DNA from: Cypionkella sp. | GTDB taxonomy: Bacteria; Pseudomonadota; Alphaproteobacteria; Rhodobacterales; Rhodobacteraceae | Direction of reading: 5' to 3' | DNA length: 50,599 nt | Assembly (NCBI GenBank): GCA_025458525.1 | Contig: JALOSF010000031.1 | Span: 1 to 50,599 of the forward strand | Shown here: piece after piece, positions 31,101-47,841 of the stretch | How positions within the stretch are numbered: position 1 is the first letter of the stretch | How the letters are laid out: each line of letters begins with the position of its first letter | Notes under the pieces: generated by a model | Told to the model about the DNA's origin: nothing | Databases searched by the model: none | Seen by the model: only the letters and a program-made list of their open reading frames with translations | Translations under genes and position numbers: made by a program

Positions 31101-34100
31101 CTACGGCACCACAATAGTCCTCGGCACGCCGCGTCCGAACTGCTGCGAAATCTGACTTACCGTGACCGTGTATCCATCAAGTGCACCGTCCAAGCTTCGA
31201 TCGTGATATGAATAGTTAAATTCTTGATGATCAACCATCACGTCGCGAACTAACAGATCATCTTGGCGCCGGACCTGCACAGAGTACAACTCACGATCTT
31301 CTGCGAGCGGAACATCAAATCCCTCCCATGAATCGCCATCAACTCTCGTTCTGCGCGCCCATATTATTCGATGAGAGTCGTCATCACCGTCAAGTTTTCT
31401 CAGGTGTACGACACTGTAAGGGCGCAAACCTACACCTGCGAACGCGATCACGTCGTGAATAACCTCATCTGAACTGAGGTTTTCGCTCACATGCCCAATT
31501 CTATAATTTCGACTCAAGCCTCGACGATCTGAAGCCAACTCTGGCTGGATCACTGTTTTGTCTATCCAGACAACAACGCTTCCGACTGGCCACCCTTGCG
31601 CAGCCAAGGCTTCAGTTCCAAAGAGACCACGAAGCTTCGATTTTATAGCGAACACCCCGGGCGCGACAAGATCAACAGATTTGAAGCTTACAAGCTCCCA
31701 ATTAGAGGAAGTCCCGTCACCGATAGCAATCAGATTGCGGTTATCGAAAAATGCTAGATCGGAAACCGACTCAATGACCAAATTTGGCATTTCTATCAGC
31801 AGATCTTCACTGCGGTCGATGATGCCACCCTCCGACGAACCAAGGAAAGTACGCGTGCGACCAATTTTAGAACTGGCCTCAATGACCTTATTGATCTGGT
31901 AATCAGCTTCTCCTGCAGAGTCCCATAGAGCAACCGCCTCAGACCACGGCTCACACATGACAGCGATGAATGGCGAGGATGCGTCCTGCGACTTGTCCAA
32001 CAGAGGCAAATCAAGCCAAGCGCGAGAAATTCTCCCAGCGTCTTGATATGCCTTCCAACGAGGCTGATCATGGTCAAAGCGGTCAGTCACAGAACCTGCA
32101 AGCAAATCACGTGCCGCTCTAACTGTGATCGTTTCCCCGATGGAACACTCATCCACTCTGTACCTATCACCGCCCAACGTGAAAAAAGACGCCGAGTCGA
32201 CAAAAATCTTTGACAACGGCAATTTAAACGACAGGCTCTCCTGGGCTGAATTGGCGCGATCAAGCCATTTTGACGCGAGATAATTCGAAGTCGATCTTGG
32301 CAGAACTATCGAGTATTCGACATCTGAAACTGATTGAGACTGAAGATGCTGCTCCACCGCCTCCGCCACTGAAATTGAATAATCACCCTCGGCTTCATAG
32401 TAGGATAGCCTAACCCGGCCGATTTGCTCCGCCAGAGCATCTCTTGATTTTTCAACTGATGGATTTTCGTCGACACCACCGACGAAAGCATCGATTGCCA
32501 ACTCAGTCACATCGATAATTCCATCGGAACTGAAAATCACGTCACCCCGACGCTCAAAACAAAAAATGTCACTGGCTAAGCAAAGCGATTGAAGCATCGC
32601 TCTTGGTGATTCTCCTGTCGTGGATGCAAAACCGTGGACAACACCGTAGGCCGACCCTGATTTAGCTGCCTTAACTCCACCACTACCGCAGATTTCCTGG
32701 ATCGCTCGTGCAATTGGCACCGACGTTACCTTACCGTTCAGCCAATGGCCAGTGTAGTAATTGCGCCCATCGATCCAAGTATCAGTATCTCGCGGAAACT
32801 CTGGAAAGGGCCGTGCGTCCCAAGCCCACGCGTAGCAATGATCCAGGTCGACCATTTTGCCATCATAGCTTAACGCACCTGGGTTGTTGCCCACCTCACT
32901 CCAAAACTCATGCTGAGCACAAAAATACTGCATCTGGATCGCGTCATCCCTTGCCCCAGTCGAAAAATACGGCAAGCCGCTATCTGACGATCTGATATCC
33001 AAGAAGATGTTAGGCTGATTGGTACCCTTATCTATAGAAGGACAGCCGTACTCAGTGAAACGGATTGGCTTCGAGCCAGGCACCCACTCAGTTGGAGCAT
33101 TGGAACGCACACCCCCGATCCTATTGTAGTGAAGGTGCGACCACCAAGATTTTAAATCCTTAGGTCGAAAAATCCAATGCTCTTCGGCCAGGTTGTCTTG
33201 GATAGGCGTCCTATGCTGGAAGTCTCTCGCATCCTGAGAGTCGTAATACCAATCAAAGCCTTCGCCCCCCATGATGTTCGCCTTAAGATATTCCTTGTTC
33301 TTGATGGAACCCCAAGCAATATCCTCATGACTATACGAATCACGCCAGTCTGAAATTGGCATATAGTTATCAATTCCTACAAAATCGATGTTGCTACTCG
33401 ACCAAAGAGGATCGAGGTGAAAATATACATTGTCGCCAACATGAAACCCAAAGTATTCACTCCAATCGGCTGCATAGCTTATCTTCACCTCCGCCCCAAG
33501 GATCGCGCGGACATCGTCTGCGAGGCGTAGCAAGGCTTGAACTGTGGGGAAAACATGATCGGCGCCTCGAATTTGCGTCAAGCCCCTCAACTCTGAGCCG
33601 ATACAAAACGCCTCAACACCGCCAGCAATCTTGCAGAGAAGCGCGTAGTGCAATATGAAACGCCGATAACCCCAAAACGGTGCACCGTGGTAGAAAATTT
33701 GTTCACCGACGACTTCAAAATCACTTGCACTGGCCGATCCAAAAAATTCAGCCACTTCCTGTTCAGCAAGGTTTGTGCAATCTGGTGTTCCCGGCAGGCC
33801 CGGCGCAATTGAAAGCGTGATTCTTCCACGCCATGGCAAGGCAATTTGACCGATTTGATCGGGAGAATACGGATTAAAGAGTTGATTTCCTGATTGCTGA
33901 TCCATCAAGACAAAGGGATAGAACATTACATCCTTTCCCATACTTTTCAGAGCTTTAATTGCATCAATAACGCTTGCGTCGGAGGGAGTTCCACCGTAAA
34001 TTGGCCGACCATCAAGCTTGGGAATCTCTTGAGCGGCGCTCCTATCAATTCCACCCGATCGCCATGGTTTGAGGTAATCAGCCAGCGTATTGCTTTCAAC

Positions 34101-34997
34101 TTTTGGCTGCACGTTGCACAGACCGCATCTCAGATCGCTGCCAAACCACGAAACAACCAAGGAAACTGCCTTACAGTTTGGCAACTCACAATCCAGCTGG
34201 CGCAGCGACTTTACAAGATCTGGGTGGCCACCAGGAGCGTTGACGTTCACGGAACGAAAGAATGTGAACGCATTTTCTACTTGCACTTTGCGAGTTGCAA
34301 GAGCGTATTCTCCCGTGCCGGGGATCAGGGCAACCCCACGAATGGCATCTTGCAAATCAGTGATATTTTCAGCAGCCGCACCTTGGCCTCGCCGCATGAC
34401 CTCGAAGCTCAATTGAGGGATGCGATTACCGAAATAGCTCAGGTCCATGTCCTCGATAATCACATAGGCTATTCCACGATATGCTGGCGCATTGTCCGGC
34501 CCTTCAACCGCCTCGATGACGGGATCAGGTAGCTGTTGCTGGGAACCATGGTAAACTCTTATATTCAAAAGCTTCTGCTTTAATTCGTCACCGTCAGCCC
34601 ATATCCGGCCAATTCCAAGGATTTCGCCCTCGCACAAGGCGACTGCAAGGCTCACCGTGTATGAGTACTGCGTTACTTTTTGTGATGGCATCCCCTTGCC
34701 ACCGGACTTTACGCGATTTTCTTTGAATGGGGACGCCCAAATGACTTGACCAGGAATTCGAATTCGGCCCCAGACCTTCGGAATCGGTGTACCTTCACTC
34801 GCCCCCATAACTTGAAGACGGTCCAATTTACCAACTTCTACAGTACCTGAGCCGGATCCCATCAAGCGTTGATCGACGACTCTGCCAATCGTAGCGCCAA
34901 CGGCTCTCCCAATCACGGCGCCAGAAAGCCCAAGAACGGTGCCGCCAAAGCCAGCACCGAGAGCGGCTCCTGCCGCCGAGAAGAGGATAGTTGCCAT
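31101..34997 (-). CDS. g15: GTA g15: tail megaprotein with TIM-barrel-like domain
   Basis: The gene encodes 1298 residues. A Gly/Ala-rich N-terminus (GAALGAGFGGTVLGLSGAVI) is followed by VWGRIRIPGQVIWASPFKEN, then a GTA TIM-barrel-like region (ISYAADWSEYFGFHVGDNVY, VGIDNYMPISDW, GGEGFDWYYDS) and a phage tail tip domain. In RcGTA this protein forms the tail tip that contacts and penetrates the recipient envelope. The start overlaps the g14 stop by one base. Spot counts of 60-base lines give 45-50% G+C here against about 63% in the head genes. It is the last gene of the cluster. Confidence 0.93.
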   Translation of the reverse strand: MATILFSAAGAALGAGFGGTVLGLSGAVIGRAVGATIGRVVDQRLMGSGSGTVEVGKLDRLQVMGASEGTPIPKVWGRIRIPGQVIWASPFKENRVKSGGKGMPSQKVTQYSYTVSLAVALCEGEILGIGRIWADGDELKQKLLNIRVYHGSQQQLPDPVIEAVEGPDNAPAYRGIAYVIIEDMDLSYFGNRIPQLSFEVMRRGQGAAAENITDLQDAIRGVALIPGTGEYALATRKVQVENAFTFFRSVNVNAPGGHPDLVKSLRQLDCELPNCKAVSLVVSWFGSDLRCGLCNVQPKVESNTLADYLKPWRSGGIDRSAAQEIPKLDGRPIYGGTPSDASVIDAIKALKSMGKDVMFYPFVLMDQQSGNQLFNPYSPDQIGQIALPWRGRITLSIAPGLPGTPDCTNLAEQEVAEFFGSASASDFEVVGEQIFYHGAPFWGYRRFILHYALLCKIAGGVEAFCIGSELRGLTQIRGADHVFPTVQALLRLADDVRAILGAEVKISYAADWSEYFGFHVGDNVYFHLDPLWSSSNIDFVGIDNYMPISDWRDSYSHEDIAWGSIKNKEYLKANIMGGEGFDWYYDSQDARDFQHRTPIQDNLAEEHWIFRPKDLKSWWSHLHYNRIGGVRSNAPTEWVPGSKPIRFTEYGCPSIDKGTNQPNIFLDIRSSDSGLPYFSTGARDDAIQMQYFCAQHEFWSEVGNNPGALSYDGKMVDLDHCYAWAWDARPFPEFPRDTDTWIDGRNYYTGHWLNGKVTSVPIARAIQEICGSGGVKAAKSGSAYGVVHGFASTTGESPRAMLQSLCLASDIFCFERRGDVIFSSDGIIDVTELAIDAFVGGVDENPSVEKSRDALAEQIGRVRLSYYEAEGDYSISVAEAVEQHLQSQSVSDVEYSIVLPRSTSNYLASKWLDRANSAQESLSFKLPLSKIFVDSASFFTLGGDRYRVDECSIGETITVRAARDLLAGSVTDRFDHDQPRWKAYQDAGRISRAWLDLPLLDKSQDASSPFIAVMCEPWSEAVALWDSAGEADYQINKVIEASSKIGRTRTFLGSSEGGIIDRSEDLLIEMPNLVIESVSDLAFFDNRNLIAIGDGTSSNWELVSFKSVDLVAPGVFAIKSKLRGLFGTEALAAQGWPVGSVVVWIDKTVIQPELASDRRGLSRNYRIGHVSENLSSDEVIHDVIAFAGVGLRPYSVVHLRKLDGDDDSHRIIWARRTRVDGDSWEGFDVPLAEDRELYSVQVRRQDDLLVRDVMVDHQEFNYSYHDRSLDGALDGYTVTVSQISQQFGRGVPRTIVVP

Positions 34998-35479
34998 TAT
35001 TTTACCTGTTCGGGAAAGCTGTAAACTGCCGCGATGCGTCGTAGCCACGGATCCGATAACGAATTTTCCACGACACCATGTCCGGTATAAGCATGGATGA
35101 ACTTAAGAGTGGGATCGCATCCGGAAACGATTCCAAGATGTTTTGCGATACAGCCCTCGCGCATTCGGAAAAGCAGGACATCGCCTACACGAAGAGTGAA
35201 GTCTGCACGTCTAATCAAGAAATTGTCCGCAGATACCATCAAGGCTTCGTCGCCAGTTGGTTCTGACCAATCCCTTGAATACGTCGGTATTTCGAGTGGC
35301 TCTGGTCCGACGACACCGCGCCAGACGCCACGGACCAAGCCAAGACAGTCTGTGCCAGCCCCTTGAGTGCTATATTGATGAAGGTATGGCGTCCCGATCC
35401 ACCGCCTTGCCTCGGCAGCGACCAGGTGGCCAGTCGCAGTGCAATCGATCACTTTGAAAGACTGTGTCAACGTGATCAT
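34997..35479 (-). CDS. g14: GTA g14: NlpC/P60-type cell wall peptidase
   Basis: The gene encodes 160 residues. The catalytic Cys lies in GAGTDCLGLVRGVW and His in CIAKHLGIV, with FIHAY following, as in NlpC/P60 cysteine peptidases. In RcGTA the corresponding protein sits at the tail tip and is thought to cut the recipient's peptidoglycan. I chose the ATG at 35477-35479 because it overlaps the g13 stop in the ATGA arrangement used throughout the cluster; an earlier in-frame ATG lies inside g13. G+C is low here too. Confidence 0.9.
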   Translation of the reverse strand: MITLTQSFKVIDCTATGHLVAAEARRWIGTPYLHQYSTQGAGTDCLGLVRGVWRGVVGPEPLEIPTYSRDWSEPTGDEALMVSADNFLIRRADFTLRVGDVLLFRMREGCIAKHLGIVSGCDPTLKFIHAYTGHGVVENSLSDPWLRRIAAVYSFPEQVK

Positions 35480-43344: not shown

Positions 43345-44688
43345 TTAAACCGCCCGGATACGCGGATCACCGCGATAGGATTTCGCGGGCTCGATCATCG
43401 CTTCATGCAGCGCCCAAACCAACGCATCCACCCGATCGGGGCTGCCCTGCCCCTTGAACCCGTCCCGCGTCATCAGGCACATCTGATCTTCAAGTTTGCG
43501 CAAGGCACCGCGGTGCACGATCCGCCCTTGCTCATAAAGCGCGGCGACAGGCTCGGCCCGCAGCGCCTTGCCCTGCCGTGCATTCACCGCCTTGTAGGCG
43601 ATCAAGGCTCCCTCGTTGCGGATCATGGTTTCCACCATGTCGCCGCCCTGATTGACCTCGGCGACCATCCGGTCCGCATCGTGCCGCTCATAGGCCGCCA
43701 CGGCCGCGCGGGCCCACTCACTTGGCCCGCCACTCACACTGGCGTCCTCAAGCACGACCGCCCGCCAATTGCGCGGGTTGCCCTCGGTGTTGACCCCGAC
43801 CACAACGATGCCACATTCATCCGACGTTTTCTTGCTGGTAACAGGCGGGTCAACCGCCACAACGATCCGCGTCAATCGCTCCGGCTCCGCCGCCCGCGCC
43901 GCGTCAAGCATCTCCATCGTCCAAAGCGTCCCGTCCAGATCCTCGATCAGCTCTCCCTCAAGCTCCTGCCGCCCCAGCCTTTGCCCACCATACCGGCTTT
44001 GCACTTCCTCAAGGAAAGACTTGGCAAGATGGGCGCGGTTTGCGTCGGTCGGGGCATGGGTCATCACGGTTGACGGGTTCTTCAGGATCGCCTTCAACAC
44101 CGGAATGCTTTGCGGGGTTGTCGTCACCACCTGTTGCGGATTCGGCCCCAAGCGAAGGGCGAACTGCAACTGGTCCCAGGTTTCCTGGGCCTTCTTCCAC
44201 TTGGCCAATTCGTCAACCCAAGCCGCGTCAAACTGCGGCCCCCGCAAACTGTCGGGATCATGCGCCGAAAACAGCTGCGCCGTCGCCCCGTTCGGCCAGG
44301 TCAGCATCCGGCGCGAGCCGTTCCACTCCGGCCGCCGGTCGGGTGGAGAGCAAGCCAGAATACCGCTCTCGCCAAACACCATGACCTCCCGCGCCTGATC
44401 CAGTGTCTCGGCGACCAAGGCCACCCGGCTTGCCCGGCCGGGGTCCGAGGGGCGCGCGCCTTCCACCTGCGCCCGCACCCACTCGGCCCCGGCCCGCGTC
44501 TTGCCTGCACCGCGCCCCCCCATGATGACCCAGCTTTTCCAGGCTCCCTCGGGTGGCATCTGATGCGGCAAAGCCCAGAATTCGAACATCCAGGGCAAGG
44601 CCAGCAGCGCCTCGTTCGACAACCCGCTCAGAAAGGCATCAATGACCTCCGGCGTCGCGGAGGAGAGCCAGACGCCTCCCGATTTCAT
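43345..44688 (-). CDS. g2: GTA g2: terminase large subunit
   Basis: The gene encodes 447 residues from the ATG at 44688. The ATPase domain has Walker A GGRGAGKT at residues 57-64 and Walker B plus catalytic Glu in AWVDELAKW (Asp159-Glu160). The nuclease domain has VAVDPPVT and a late DRVDALVW. It packages host DNA headful by headful, without phage-specific recognition. The frame stays open to 44772, but that part lies inside g1, and the exact start is uncertain. Confidence 0.94.
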   Translation of the reverse strand: MKSGGVWLSSATPEVIDAFLSGLSNEALLALPWMFEFWALPHQMPPEGAWKSWVIMGGRGAGKTRAGAEWVRAQVEGARPSDPGRASRVALVAETLDQAREVMVFGESGILACSPPDRRPEWNGSRRMLTWPNGATAQLFSAHDPDSLRGPQFDAAWVDELAKWKKAQETWDQLQFALRLGPNPQQVVTTTPQSIPVLKAILKNPSTVMTHAPTDANRAHLAKSFLEEVQSRYGGQRLGRQELEGELIEDLDGTLWTMEMLDAARAAEPERLTRIVVAVDPPVTSKKTSDECGIVVVGVNTEGNPRNWRAVVLEDASVSGGPSEWARAAVAAYERHDADRMVAEVNQGGDMVETMIRNEGALIAYKAVNARQGKALRAEPVAALYEQGRIVHRGALRKLEDQMCLMTRDGFKGQGSPDRVDALVWALHEAMIEPAKSYRGDPRIRAV

Positions 44689-44974
44689 CACGCGCTGCGG
44701 AAAAGTCGAGCTCGCCGGCTCCGACAGCCCCGGCAACAGATTTGCGGAGTTTGTCAACTTTGTTCCTCTCATCCATGTAAAGCCGGATAAAACTCGTCAG
44801 ATTGTCCGTGACCTTCTTGGCCTCGGCCAACTGATCGAAGCGCCCGGCTTCAACGTCTTCAATCACATGCTGTAGCCTGAGAACGGCCCGCTCCAATTGC
44901 CTCTCGGCAACCCACAACAGGTCTCTCGGCGCTTCTGTCTGGTCCGCTTCTGTTGCAGTGAAGTTGATTGTCAT
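44639..44974 (-). CDS. g1: GTA g1: small terminase-like protein
   Basis: The gene encodes 111 residues, mostly helical (LLWVAERQLERAVLRLQHVI, then EDVEAGRFDQLAEAKKVTDN), with a central coiled-coil-like segment. In RcGTA, g1 is the small terminase partner, which lacks a usual DNA-binding domain, in line with non-specific packaging. It is the first gene of the cluster and overlaps the end of g2's reading frame. Its ribosome site is weak: GAGGCGGG lies further upstream than usual. An intrinsic terminator hairpin lies about 40 bases before its ATG. Confidence 0.88.
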   Translation of the reverse strand: MTINFTATEADQTEAPRDLLWVAERQLERAVLRLQHVIEDVEAGRFDQLAEAKKVTDNLTSFIRLYMDERNKVDKLRKSVAGAVGAGELDFSAARDEIGRRLALLRDAGGH

Positions 44975-45012: not shown

Positions 45013-45054
45013 CAAAATGAAAAAGAGCGGTCAGGGGTCTTACCCCGCCGCTCT
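45013..45054 (-). terminator. Intrinsic terminator in the GTA leader, between promoter and g1
   Basis: On the minus strand, AGAGCGG, an inner GGGGT/ACCCC pair and CCGCTCT form a stem (45054-45024) followed by TTTTTCATTTT. It lies about 20 bases after the predicted GTA transcription start and ends about 40 bases before g1. It may end the mltG transcript, but it also stands in the way of GTA transcription. Confidence 0.85.
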
Positions 45055-45079
45055 CGACACTTCTTCTAGCATGTCACAA

Positions 45080-45108
45080 GTGATACTTTGGACCGCGCGC
45101 CAAGTCAA
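45080..45108 (-). promoter_or_regulatory. Predicted GTA operon promoter
   Basis: Reading the minus strand, TTGACT (45108-45103), a 17-base spacer and TATCAC (45085-45080) give a good vegetative sigma match. Start would be near 45073, about 100 bases before the g1 ATG. It lies in the mltG-g1 gap and no other gene on this strand begins nearby, so it is assigned to the GTA cluster. Confidence 0.65.
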
Positions 45109-45180: not shown

Positions 45181-46359
45181 CTACTCGCTCTGCACGCCGG
45201 TCTGACCCTCTTGCCCGCGCTGCCGCTCGATCTCGCGCCAGCGCGCCACATTGGCGTTATGTTCTTCCAGCGTGACCGCAAAGGCATGGCCGCCGGTGCC
45301 ATCGGCCACGAAGAAGATGTAATCCGTGGTGTCCGGGTTCAGCGCCGCCTCGATGCTCAACCGCCCGGGATTGGCAATCGGCGTCGGCGGCAATCCATCA
45401 ATGACATAGGTGTTGTAGGGCGTCTCGCGCCGCAATTCGCTTTGCCGGATGCCACGGCCCAGAACGCCTTGCCCGTTGGTGATGCCGTAAATCACCGTCG
45501 GGTCGGTCTGCAAACGCATCCCGCGTTCAAGTCGGTTGACAAAAACGCTGGCCACCTGCGGGCGTTCATCGGCCACCCCGGTTTCCTTTTCCACGATCGA
45601 CGCCATGATCAGCGCCTCCTGCGGCGTATCATAGGGCAGCCCGCTTGCCCTGCTCGCCCAAAGCGCGTCAAGAATACGGGTCTGCGCCTCTTGCATCCGC
45701 GCCACCAATGCGGCGCGATCAGACCCCTTTTCCACCTCATAGCTGTCGGGGGCCAAGCTCCCCTCGGGCGGTAGGTCAACGATCTCCCCGGTCAGGAAAT
45801 CGGCCCGTTTCAGCGCCTCTACCACCTGCCAGCTGGTCACGCCTTCGGCCAAAGTGACCCGAAACCGCAGGTCGGTCTCCTCCACCACATCAACATAGGC
45901 CTGCGGCAAGGCATCCACCGCCGGATCGAATTTGACCACCTCGACATAGCGGTTCGTGGCCGCATCCAACTCGCGCAGCACCACATCCGCACTGTTCACG
46001 CCGATCCGGAAATTGACCTCGCGCCCGCAGGTGGATTGGCCACCCTCGGTCAAGGCGCCAAGCACATCCACCATCGATGCACCGGGCGGGATCAGATAGC
46101 TGCCGAATTTCAACAATTGCGCCTTGTCGGAATAATCCGCGCCGATCCGAAAGATCCGCGCATCCGAAACGGCGCCCTGCTCCTCAAGCGCCCGGCTCAC
46201 CGCGCTCAACGATGCCCCCCGGTCCACCCGGAAACAGATCGCCTCGGTCAAGGGCCCTGGCCCGCGAAACGCCTCACGTCCCCAGGCAAGCAAGCCCGCC
46301 GCCACAACCAGCAGCACGATGAACAGCGTCAGCGCATTTGAGGCGATGGAGCGCCACAT
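45181..46359 (-). CDS. mltG: Endolytic transglycosylase MltG
   Basis: The gene encodes 392 residues. One N-terminal membrane helix (about 8-26) precedes a LysM-like segment and the YceG domain. The catalytic Glu lies in ASIVEKETG (about residue 257), with VFVNRLERGMRLQTDPTVIY, then GLPPTPIANPG, as family signatures. It cuts nascent glycan strands in the inner membrane and sets their length. It starts three bases after fabF. A GTA cluster follows it. Confidence 0.95.
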   Translation of the reverse strand: MWRSIASNALTLFIVLLVVAAGLLAWGREAFRGPGPLTEAICFRVDRGASLSAVSRALEEQGAVSDARIFRIGADYSDKAQLLKFGSYLIPPGASMVDVLGALTEGGQSTCGREVNFRIGVNSADVVLRELDAATNRYVEVVKFDPAVDALPQAYVDVVEETDLRFRVTLAEGVTSWQVVEALKRADFLTGEIVDLPPEGSLAPDSYEVEKGSDRAALVARMQEAQTRILDALWASRASGLPYDTPQEALIMASIVEKETGVADERPQVASVFVNRLERGMRLQTDPTVIYGITNGQGVLGRGIRQSELRRETPYNTYVIDGLPPTPIANPGRLSIEAALNPDTTDYIFFVADGTGGHAFAVTLEEHNANVARWREIERQRGQEGQTGVQSE

Positions 46360-47818: not shown

Positions 47819-47841
47819 AAAAAAAAGGCCCCGGTGGGGCC
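47819..47841 (-). terminator. Intrinsic terminator after tRNA-His
   Basis: On the minus strand GGCCCC, loop ACC and GGGGCC form a 6-base-pair stem followed by eight T, 30 bases past the tRNA-His 3' end. Confidence 0.88.

Follow-up and report, generated by a model that had tools for sequence, protein, structure and literature searches.

The window analyzed here, a stretch of 50,599 nucleotides from Cypionkella sp. (Rhodobacteraceae; contig JALOSF010000031.1), carries on its minus strand a gene transfer agent (GTA) cluster, and raises the question of how such a cluster is switched on when its predicted promoter is followed at once by an apparent intrinsic terminator, ahead of the first gene, g1. 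The initial annotation had interpreted this layout as a likely antitermination switch, an interpretation supported by the comparisons described below. A predicted sigma-70-type promoter, its spacer core, the first transcribed bases and a terminator approximately 60 nt into the transcript are kept together before g1 in most of the family genomes examined. The reading we favour, with a probability of roughly 0.7, is that the promoter-proximal terminator gates the GTA operon, as part of a leader controlled by antitermination dependent on the regulator GafA; GafA-driven read-through itself would be expected by analogy with the Caulobacter homologue GafZ. It matters for Rhodobacter-type GTAs whether GafA acts at initiation via the omega subunit of RNA polymerase or by antitermination as in Caulobacter. 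The conserved terminator, about 60 nt from the start, stands after the GafA-bound fragment and ahead of g1, and so makes this question testable. The silence of GTAs in most cells may thus be set by early termination.

In the window, the promoter proposed by the initial annotation (TTGACT-N17-TATCAC, minus strand) is read directly at 45108-45080. The stem and T tract that it had placed at 45054-45013, before g1, are also present, except that the T tract ends at 45014, so that the limit of 45013 was off by one. Counted from the start at 45073, itself a prediction from the -10 spacing, the last base of the T tract lies about 59 bases into the transcript, in agreement with the proposal of a terminator within some 60 bases. 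The hairpin is GC-rich and directly followed by the T tract, as is characteristic of an intrinsic (Rho-independent) terminator, and a dedicated terminator scan scored it with a folding free energy (dG) of -21.8 and a T score of 3.31. A claim resting on this single window would be weak, and it is the comparison across relatives that, at the level of sequence, settles the matter.

The large terminase (TerL) of the window was searched in 198 genomes of the family, representing 197 genera, 174 of which were positive. Upstream DNA was scanned in 146 of these, the window included; among the 28 omitted, three loci lie at contig ends (G041, G061, G186), one was scanned separately (G075), and the remaining genomes, including ten with a TerL fusion described below, ranked below the matches listed. 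A strong intrinsic terminator, defined by dG of at most -14 and a T score of at least 2.4 within the 245 nt before g1, was detected in 117 of the 146 loci; the opposite strand gave 17, and ten sets of dinucleotide-shuffled sequences gave 11-25. A narrower early test, performed on 82 loci (eight loci without a BLAST anchor joined only the later set), revealed a terminator in 71; the controls gave 4 (antisense), 3-6 (shuffled sequences), 9 (preceding 150 nt) and 3 (coding DNA of g1). Upstream of the terminator, the pattern TTGAC-N16-19-[TC]A was present in 106 of the 117 terminator-bearing loci, starting 78-97 nt before the T run, and in shuffled upstream DNA it was present in 3.4 loci on average (range 1 to 6). 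The locus alignment yielded the spacer consensus TTGACTTTGCGnACGGTC; TTGA is invariant by construction in alignment A1 (see below), whose rows were cut there. The hairpin is thus conserved between promoter and g1 in relatives, the very point on which the initial annotation had been prepared to see its proposal fail.

A further test did not select for the hairpin. A promoter-only pattern, composed of the -35, the spacer core, the -10 and the initial transcribed bases, was scanned over a collection of viral contigs, with a terminator cut-off of dG at most -11 and T score at least 2.4. It retrieved 41 contigs, and all 41 have a terminator with a T run beginning 78-92 nt from the first base of the -35; the promoter alone therefore predicts the terminator. 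GTA genes follow in 40 of the 41, with a TerL match 319-492 nt further on, and in the remaining contig (L319) the DNA ends about 280 bases after the motif, too short to show a GTA gene. Among named genomes around Rhodobacter capsulatus (mostly Paracoccus), 79 of 80 loci matched a covariance model (R1) with E values of 1e-8 or better, and all 79 possess TTGAC and a terminator, with a -10 that is mostly TAGAAn. Since model R1 was trained on alignment A1, its matches within the family are not independent; the named-genome and viral-contig tests are more so, and may include near relatives of the training rows. In Paracoccus loci (e.g. L156, L141 and L147), repeated GGTGTTGCGC-like motifs were also observed about 50-100 nt upstream of the -35, and are possible candidate sites for the N-terminal domain of GafA.

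Alignment A1 comprises 72 of 80 hairpin-bearing loci, eight (L037, L064, L066, L076, L079, L081, L087 and L089) having been dropped for a misplaced hairpin or -35. Changes on both sides were found at all eight consensus stem pairs, 89.3% of cells were paired versus 79.7% after shuffling, and the covariation score reached 0.374, versus 0.207 for shuffled alignments and at most 0.252 for slid partners. Pairing is therefore kept while the stem sequence varies, the compensatory pattern expected of an intrinsic terminator. Folding of 197 leaders, a set which counts the window twice, demonstrated that leaders including the 3' arm of the stem fold far better than their shuffles (median z of -3.0; 171 of 197 below -2), whereas leaders deprived of this arm fold no better than shuffles (median z of +0.5; 1 of 197 below -2), so that no conserved competing RNA fold is evident. 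As for a leader peptide, an ATG is present in only 41 of the 76 loci matching the start-region pattern, and counted from a later RTG, present in 65 loci, the T run is spread over the three frames with 28, 20 and 17 cases, so that the frame is not conserved; an Rfam search gave no match. Taken together, the absence of a competing fold and of a leader peptide favours a protein factor.

The candidate for such a factor is GafA. The genome containing the window encodes one DUF6456 protein, GafA, in a 395-codon open frame (PF20057, E = 2.6e-62). Among 100 family genomes, GafA was found in 93 and a strong leader (E at most 1e-6) in 66, in a single copy in each and always together with GafA (66 of 93 GafA-positive versus 0 of 7 GafA-less genomes; Fisher p = 3e-4). 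In the genome of the window itself the next-best model match has an E value of only 0.33. The single leader site per genome parallels the single target reported for Caulobacter GafZ (PMC11150451). The conserved spacer core is part of the stretch to which GafA binds in R. capsulatus, and the Caulobacter GafZ palindrome was found in none of 269 loci. As a separate observation, this palindrome occurs somewhere in 17 of 41 genomes around one genome outside the family.

The locus of R. capsulatus DSM 1710 (L101) opens with the mltG stop, after which come, in order, a terminator of its own (GAAAACCCCGGCTGGGCCCGGGGTTTTT), the promoter TTGACA-N17-TAGAAA, the leader hairpin (AGCGCAACGGGAAACCGTTTGCGCT) with TTTTTTCATTTC, and g1. 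Of five probes from this species, GafA was reported to bind only the one that covers 76-125 bp upstream of g1 (Fogg, PMC6363796), and the bound fragment is described as holding the -10 and a start supported by RNA-seq (PMC6363796). In DSM 1710, the stretch 76-125 bp upstream of g1 falls between the -35 and the hairpin; the bound fragment with the mapped start thus ends before the hairpin, which places the start upstream of the stem, as the initial annotation had predicted, assuming the same layout across strains. Primer sequences given for the published strain have no match in DSM 1710, and a base-level match between the strains is an assumption. Both GafA and its C-terminal domain are reported to bind the R. 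capsulatus fragment with the spacer, the -10 and the start (PMC6363796, PMC9638019), and the exact site of this domain would be the spacer core. The word "terminator" is absent from the main texts of both reports.

Basal firing, termination, GafA-dependent read-through and the involvement of Nus factors are steps that we infer, as follows. Without GafA, polymerase would start, stop near +50 to +60 and release a short RNA. GafA, as a one-chain counterpart of Caulobacter GafY plus GafZ, would bind between the -35 and the start through its C-terminal (DUF6456) domain and load onto early polymerase, probably with the assistance of Nus factors, and the modified polymerase would pass the terminator and transcribe the cluster of roughly 14 kb. 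Given a TTGAC -35 and a terminator before g1, control largely at elongation is the simplest reading. Beyond this, and at slightly less than even odds, the promoter may be on by default, with constantly produced aborted RNAs of about 55 nt; rare producer cells would be those in which GafA, in the manner of phage lambda Q, converts polymerase at the promoter, a phage late-promoter design kept through domestication and even in reduced clusters from which most GTA genes are gone.

Several observations weigh against the predicted elements themselves or against GafA-dependent antitermination. A simple consensus scanner reported neither promoter nor terminator in the window, missing both because the -10 is without the required final T and the stem is bulged, and the 111-nt window stretch folds no better than its own shuffles (z of -0.91). 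As the -10 is imperfect, basal firing is not established by sequence. No strong terminator is present in 29 of the 146 family loci, several of them in GafA-positive genomes, and GafA systems can therefore work without one; among these 29, a weaker hairpin and T run stand at the usual place in L026, L065, L077 and L225, in L071 and L220 the stem is, by eye, apparently kept with the T run gone, and others show no trace of the leader terminator. Searches beyond the family did not recover the unit as such: 26 loci there gave only weak sense-strand matches to the model (L184, E = 3e-4). Five of the seven GafA-less genomes are also without a TerL match, which makes the co-occurrence of leader and GafA weak evidence, consistent rather than proof. 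Furthermore, the Caulobacter terminator terGTA is reported to sit after g1 (PMC11150451), whereas in Rhodobacteraceae the terminator precedes it, R. capsulatus GafA is reported to act via omega, possibly at initiation (PMC9638019), and its N-terminal domain bound fragments on either side of the C-terminal site (PMC9638019).

The main rival, compatible with antitermination, is initiation control: GafA would act through omega on a promoter silent in its absence, and the hairpin would be only a safeguard or insulator, passed in part. Besides the reported GafA-omega interaction, it draws on the terminator-less family members that still carry GafA and on Caulobacter, where GafY together with integration host factor (IHF) is reported to activate initiation at a promoter with the -35 AATCAT (PMC11150451). 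The -35 is TTGAC here, however, and a near-consensus -35 in Caulobacter was reported to be active with and without GafYZ, about sixfold weaker (PMC11150451), while a selected terminator right after a promoter costs expression unless purposely overcome; we therefore regard this alternative as unlikely. The initial annotation had itself named another, namely that the hairpin merely ends mltG transcripts, with which a role in blocking read-through from upstream is considered together here. In 126 of 196 loci the mltG gene is no more than 600 nt away, and the window shows no strong terminator dedicated to mltG ahead of the promoter. Such a separate terminator does exist between mltG and the -35 in 33 of the 126 mltG-adjacent loci (compared with 12 on the reverse strand), R. 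capsulatus included, and is clear in several Rhodobacter, Thioclava and Sinirhodobacter records. Moreover, in L042 and L069 a divergent, unrelated gene (aminotransferase class V and fumarylacetoacetate hydrolase, respectively) adjoins the promoter and mltG is more than 1.1 kb away, yet the promoter-terminator unit is unchanged, and the viral contigs show that the promoter alone predicts the terminator. A third locus with a divergent neighbour, L255, has a promoter mismatch and was not counted, and L085 has a reverse-strand ORF upstream with no Pfam match. As a general and sole function, mltG termination was thus rejected and is very improbable; where no other mltG terminator exists, the window included, the hairpin probably ends mltG transcripts as well.

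Slightly more doubtful still is a functional small RNA of about 55-60 nt as the main product, with g1 reached by leaky read-through. By default a short RNA is indeed to be expected, and its 5' part is conserved, but this part lies inside the GafA-bound fragment, for which a simpler reading is available, Rfam gave no match, and the main text of a study of R. pomeroyi small RNAs does not mention transfer agent, GTA or terminase (PMC4809877). The position of the terminator inside a 5' leader would also suit an RNA-based attenuator, either a riboswitch or leader-peptide control; it was rejected, and appears barely credible, since leaders without the 3' arm fold like shuffles, no antiterminator fold or reading frame is conserved and Rfam gave no match. 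An equally slim chance is left to the inverted repeat serving as a DNA operator, e.g. for the GafA N-terminal domain, rather than as an RNA terminator. One of the R. capsulatus fragments bound by this domain on both sides of the C-terminal site may overlap the hairpin (PMC9638019), but the stem varies in sequence with its pairing kept, the T tract is on one strand only and the hairpin is in sense-strand excess (117 versus 17 of 146 loci); a DNA palindrome as the main role was rejected on account of the covarying stem.

The leader, or a layout resembling it, was also encountered in other settings. Ten of the 198 family genomes (L282-L291: G055, G070, G043, G139, G092, G137, G079, G140, G104 and G144) carry end-to-end matches to a fusion in which the TerL N-terminus (up to about residue 189) is joined to the C-terminal half of a g15-like tail protein (from about residue 666; window 31101-35048). 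The copies are 56-70% identical to that of G055, in open frames of 609-878 amino acids (418 in G055), and the junction was checked in three. All ten keep the promoter-terminator leader, and the fusion locus looks like a retained, reduced GTA. A weaker second model match (L269:2139-2228 and L278; G040:C3) precedes a prophage-like packaging operon of a family member, in which two DNA methylases accompany a gpA-type large terminase; its leader has TTGACA, GTAGCA and then a hairpin with TTTTCATTTT, which suggests that the layout is possibly a phage late-promoter design. Around a weak model match on G043:C3, nothing of interest was found in the stretch read. Outside the family, four loci (L201, L204, L207 and L209) show, by eye, a promoter-like sequence and then an intrinsic terminator at the head of a GTA-like cluster, just before its first gene, and L201 also has TATGCT-TTTGACATGCT, resembling the -10 and start region of the family.

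Other leader features were noted in passing. The terminator-less family genomes include L214, L215, L218, L223, L237, L250 and L253, and several (L218, L223, L237, L250 and L253) share a different leader, CAGGCAAnAAAGGTnTCGAGC, immediately before g1. A strict pattern found another stem, CTCGTRC...GYAYGAG, downstream of the T tract in 51 of 154 loci; it overlaps the purine-rich region ahead of g1 and might influence g1 translation. In L101 it is located just after position 2149.

The features of the window are collected in the table. The cluster is a Rhodobacter-type GTA, with large terminase, portal, protease and capsid identified by Pfam, and its portal matches R. capsulatus Rcc01684 (E = 4.5e-186). 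The g1 protein gave no match in Pfam and PDB searches, and was named from its place ahead of TerL and from tblastn matches at the equivalent place in relatives; in R. capsulatus, g1 is reported to be the small terminase (PMC6854486). Elsewhere in the window, a strong terminator-like hairpin with eight T was seen upstream of fabF (47827-47841, minus strand).

Table. Features of the predicted GTA leader and adjoining genes in the Cypionkella sp. window.
Feature	Position	Strand	Basis
-35 hexamer TTGACT	45103..45108	minus	direct reading of the sequence
17-base spacer, core CGnnCG (CGCGCG in the window); candidate site of the GafA C-terminal domain	45086..45102	minus	
-10 hexamer TATCAC	45080..45085	minus	direct reading; imperfect
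Predicted transcription start near 45073 and conserved initial transcribed bases CATGCTAGAAGAAGTG	45058..45073	minus	
Terminator hairpin GAGAGCGGCGGGGTAAGACCCCTGACCGCTCTT; 13 pairs, one bulge, 6-base loop	45023..45055	minus	
T tract TTTTTCATTTT	45014..45024	minus	
GTA g1, small-terminase position, 111 aa, ATG at 44974	44639..44974	minus	
GTA g2, large terminase	43345..44772	minus	Pfam Terminase_6N and Terminase_6C
mltG (YceG-like), upstream neighbour, stop at 45181	45181..46359	minus	Pfam YceG

A promoter followed by a terminator, with an antiterminator loaded between -10 and -35, is the arrangement of lambda Q at pR'-tR' and of Pseudomonas aeruginosa AlpA, and the terminator after the promoter is shared with the present leader. 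Antitermination is reportedly also at work in the Bartonella BaGTA, to go by the title of a report, although that agent is a different, chimeric GTA. The R. capsulatus agent (RcGTA) shares the promoter family and the regulator, and the hairpin is present in DSM 1710, whereas the published account is of activation at the promoter, later through omega (PMC6363796, PMC9638019). Listings of the open-access literature pointed to no earlier description of a promoter-proximal terminator in a Rhodobacter-type GTA. The closest parallel is the GafY/GafZ-terGTA system of Caulobacter crescentus, which has the same type of cluster and a homologous (DUF6456) regulator; like the arrangement proposed here, it is reported to have a factor site between -10 and -35 and a terminator that separates the promoter from most of the cluster (PMC11150451). 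GafZ is a supported antiterminator which also passes Escherichia coli rrnB T1, and the same authors (Tran and Le 2024) suggest that antitermination might be an activity of R. capsulatus GafA that has gone unrecognised (PMC11150451). The differences concern the regulator, one chain (GafA) here and two (GafY and GafZ) in Caulobacter; the terminator, a single intrinsic hairpin here, while terGTA is described as lying in three direct repeats of 150 bp that contain imperfect inverted repeats (PMC11150451); and the leader, with a TTGAC -35 and a terminator about 60 nt from the start here, as opposed to a reported -35 of AATCAT and a 5' leader of about 250 nt (PMC11150451). Terminator placement is thus suggested to differ between Caulobacter and Rhodobacteraceae. 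Antitermination in GTAs is already known from Caulobacter, and control through a terminator before g1 in Rhodobacter-type GTAs would be a variant of it.
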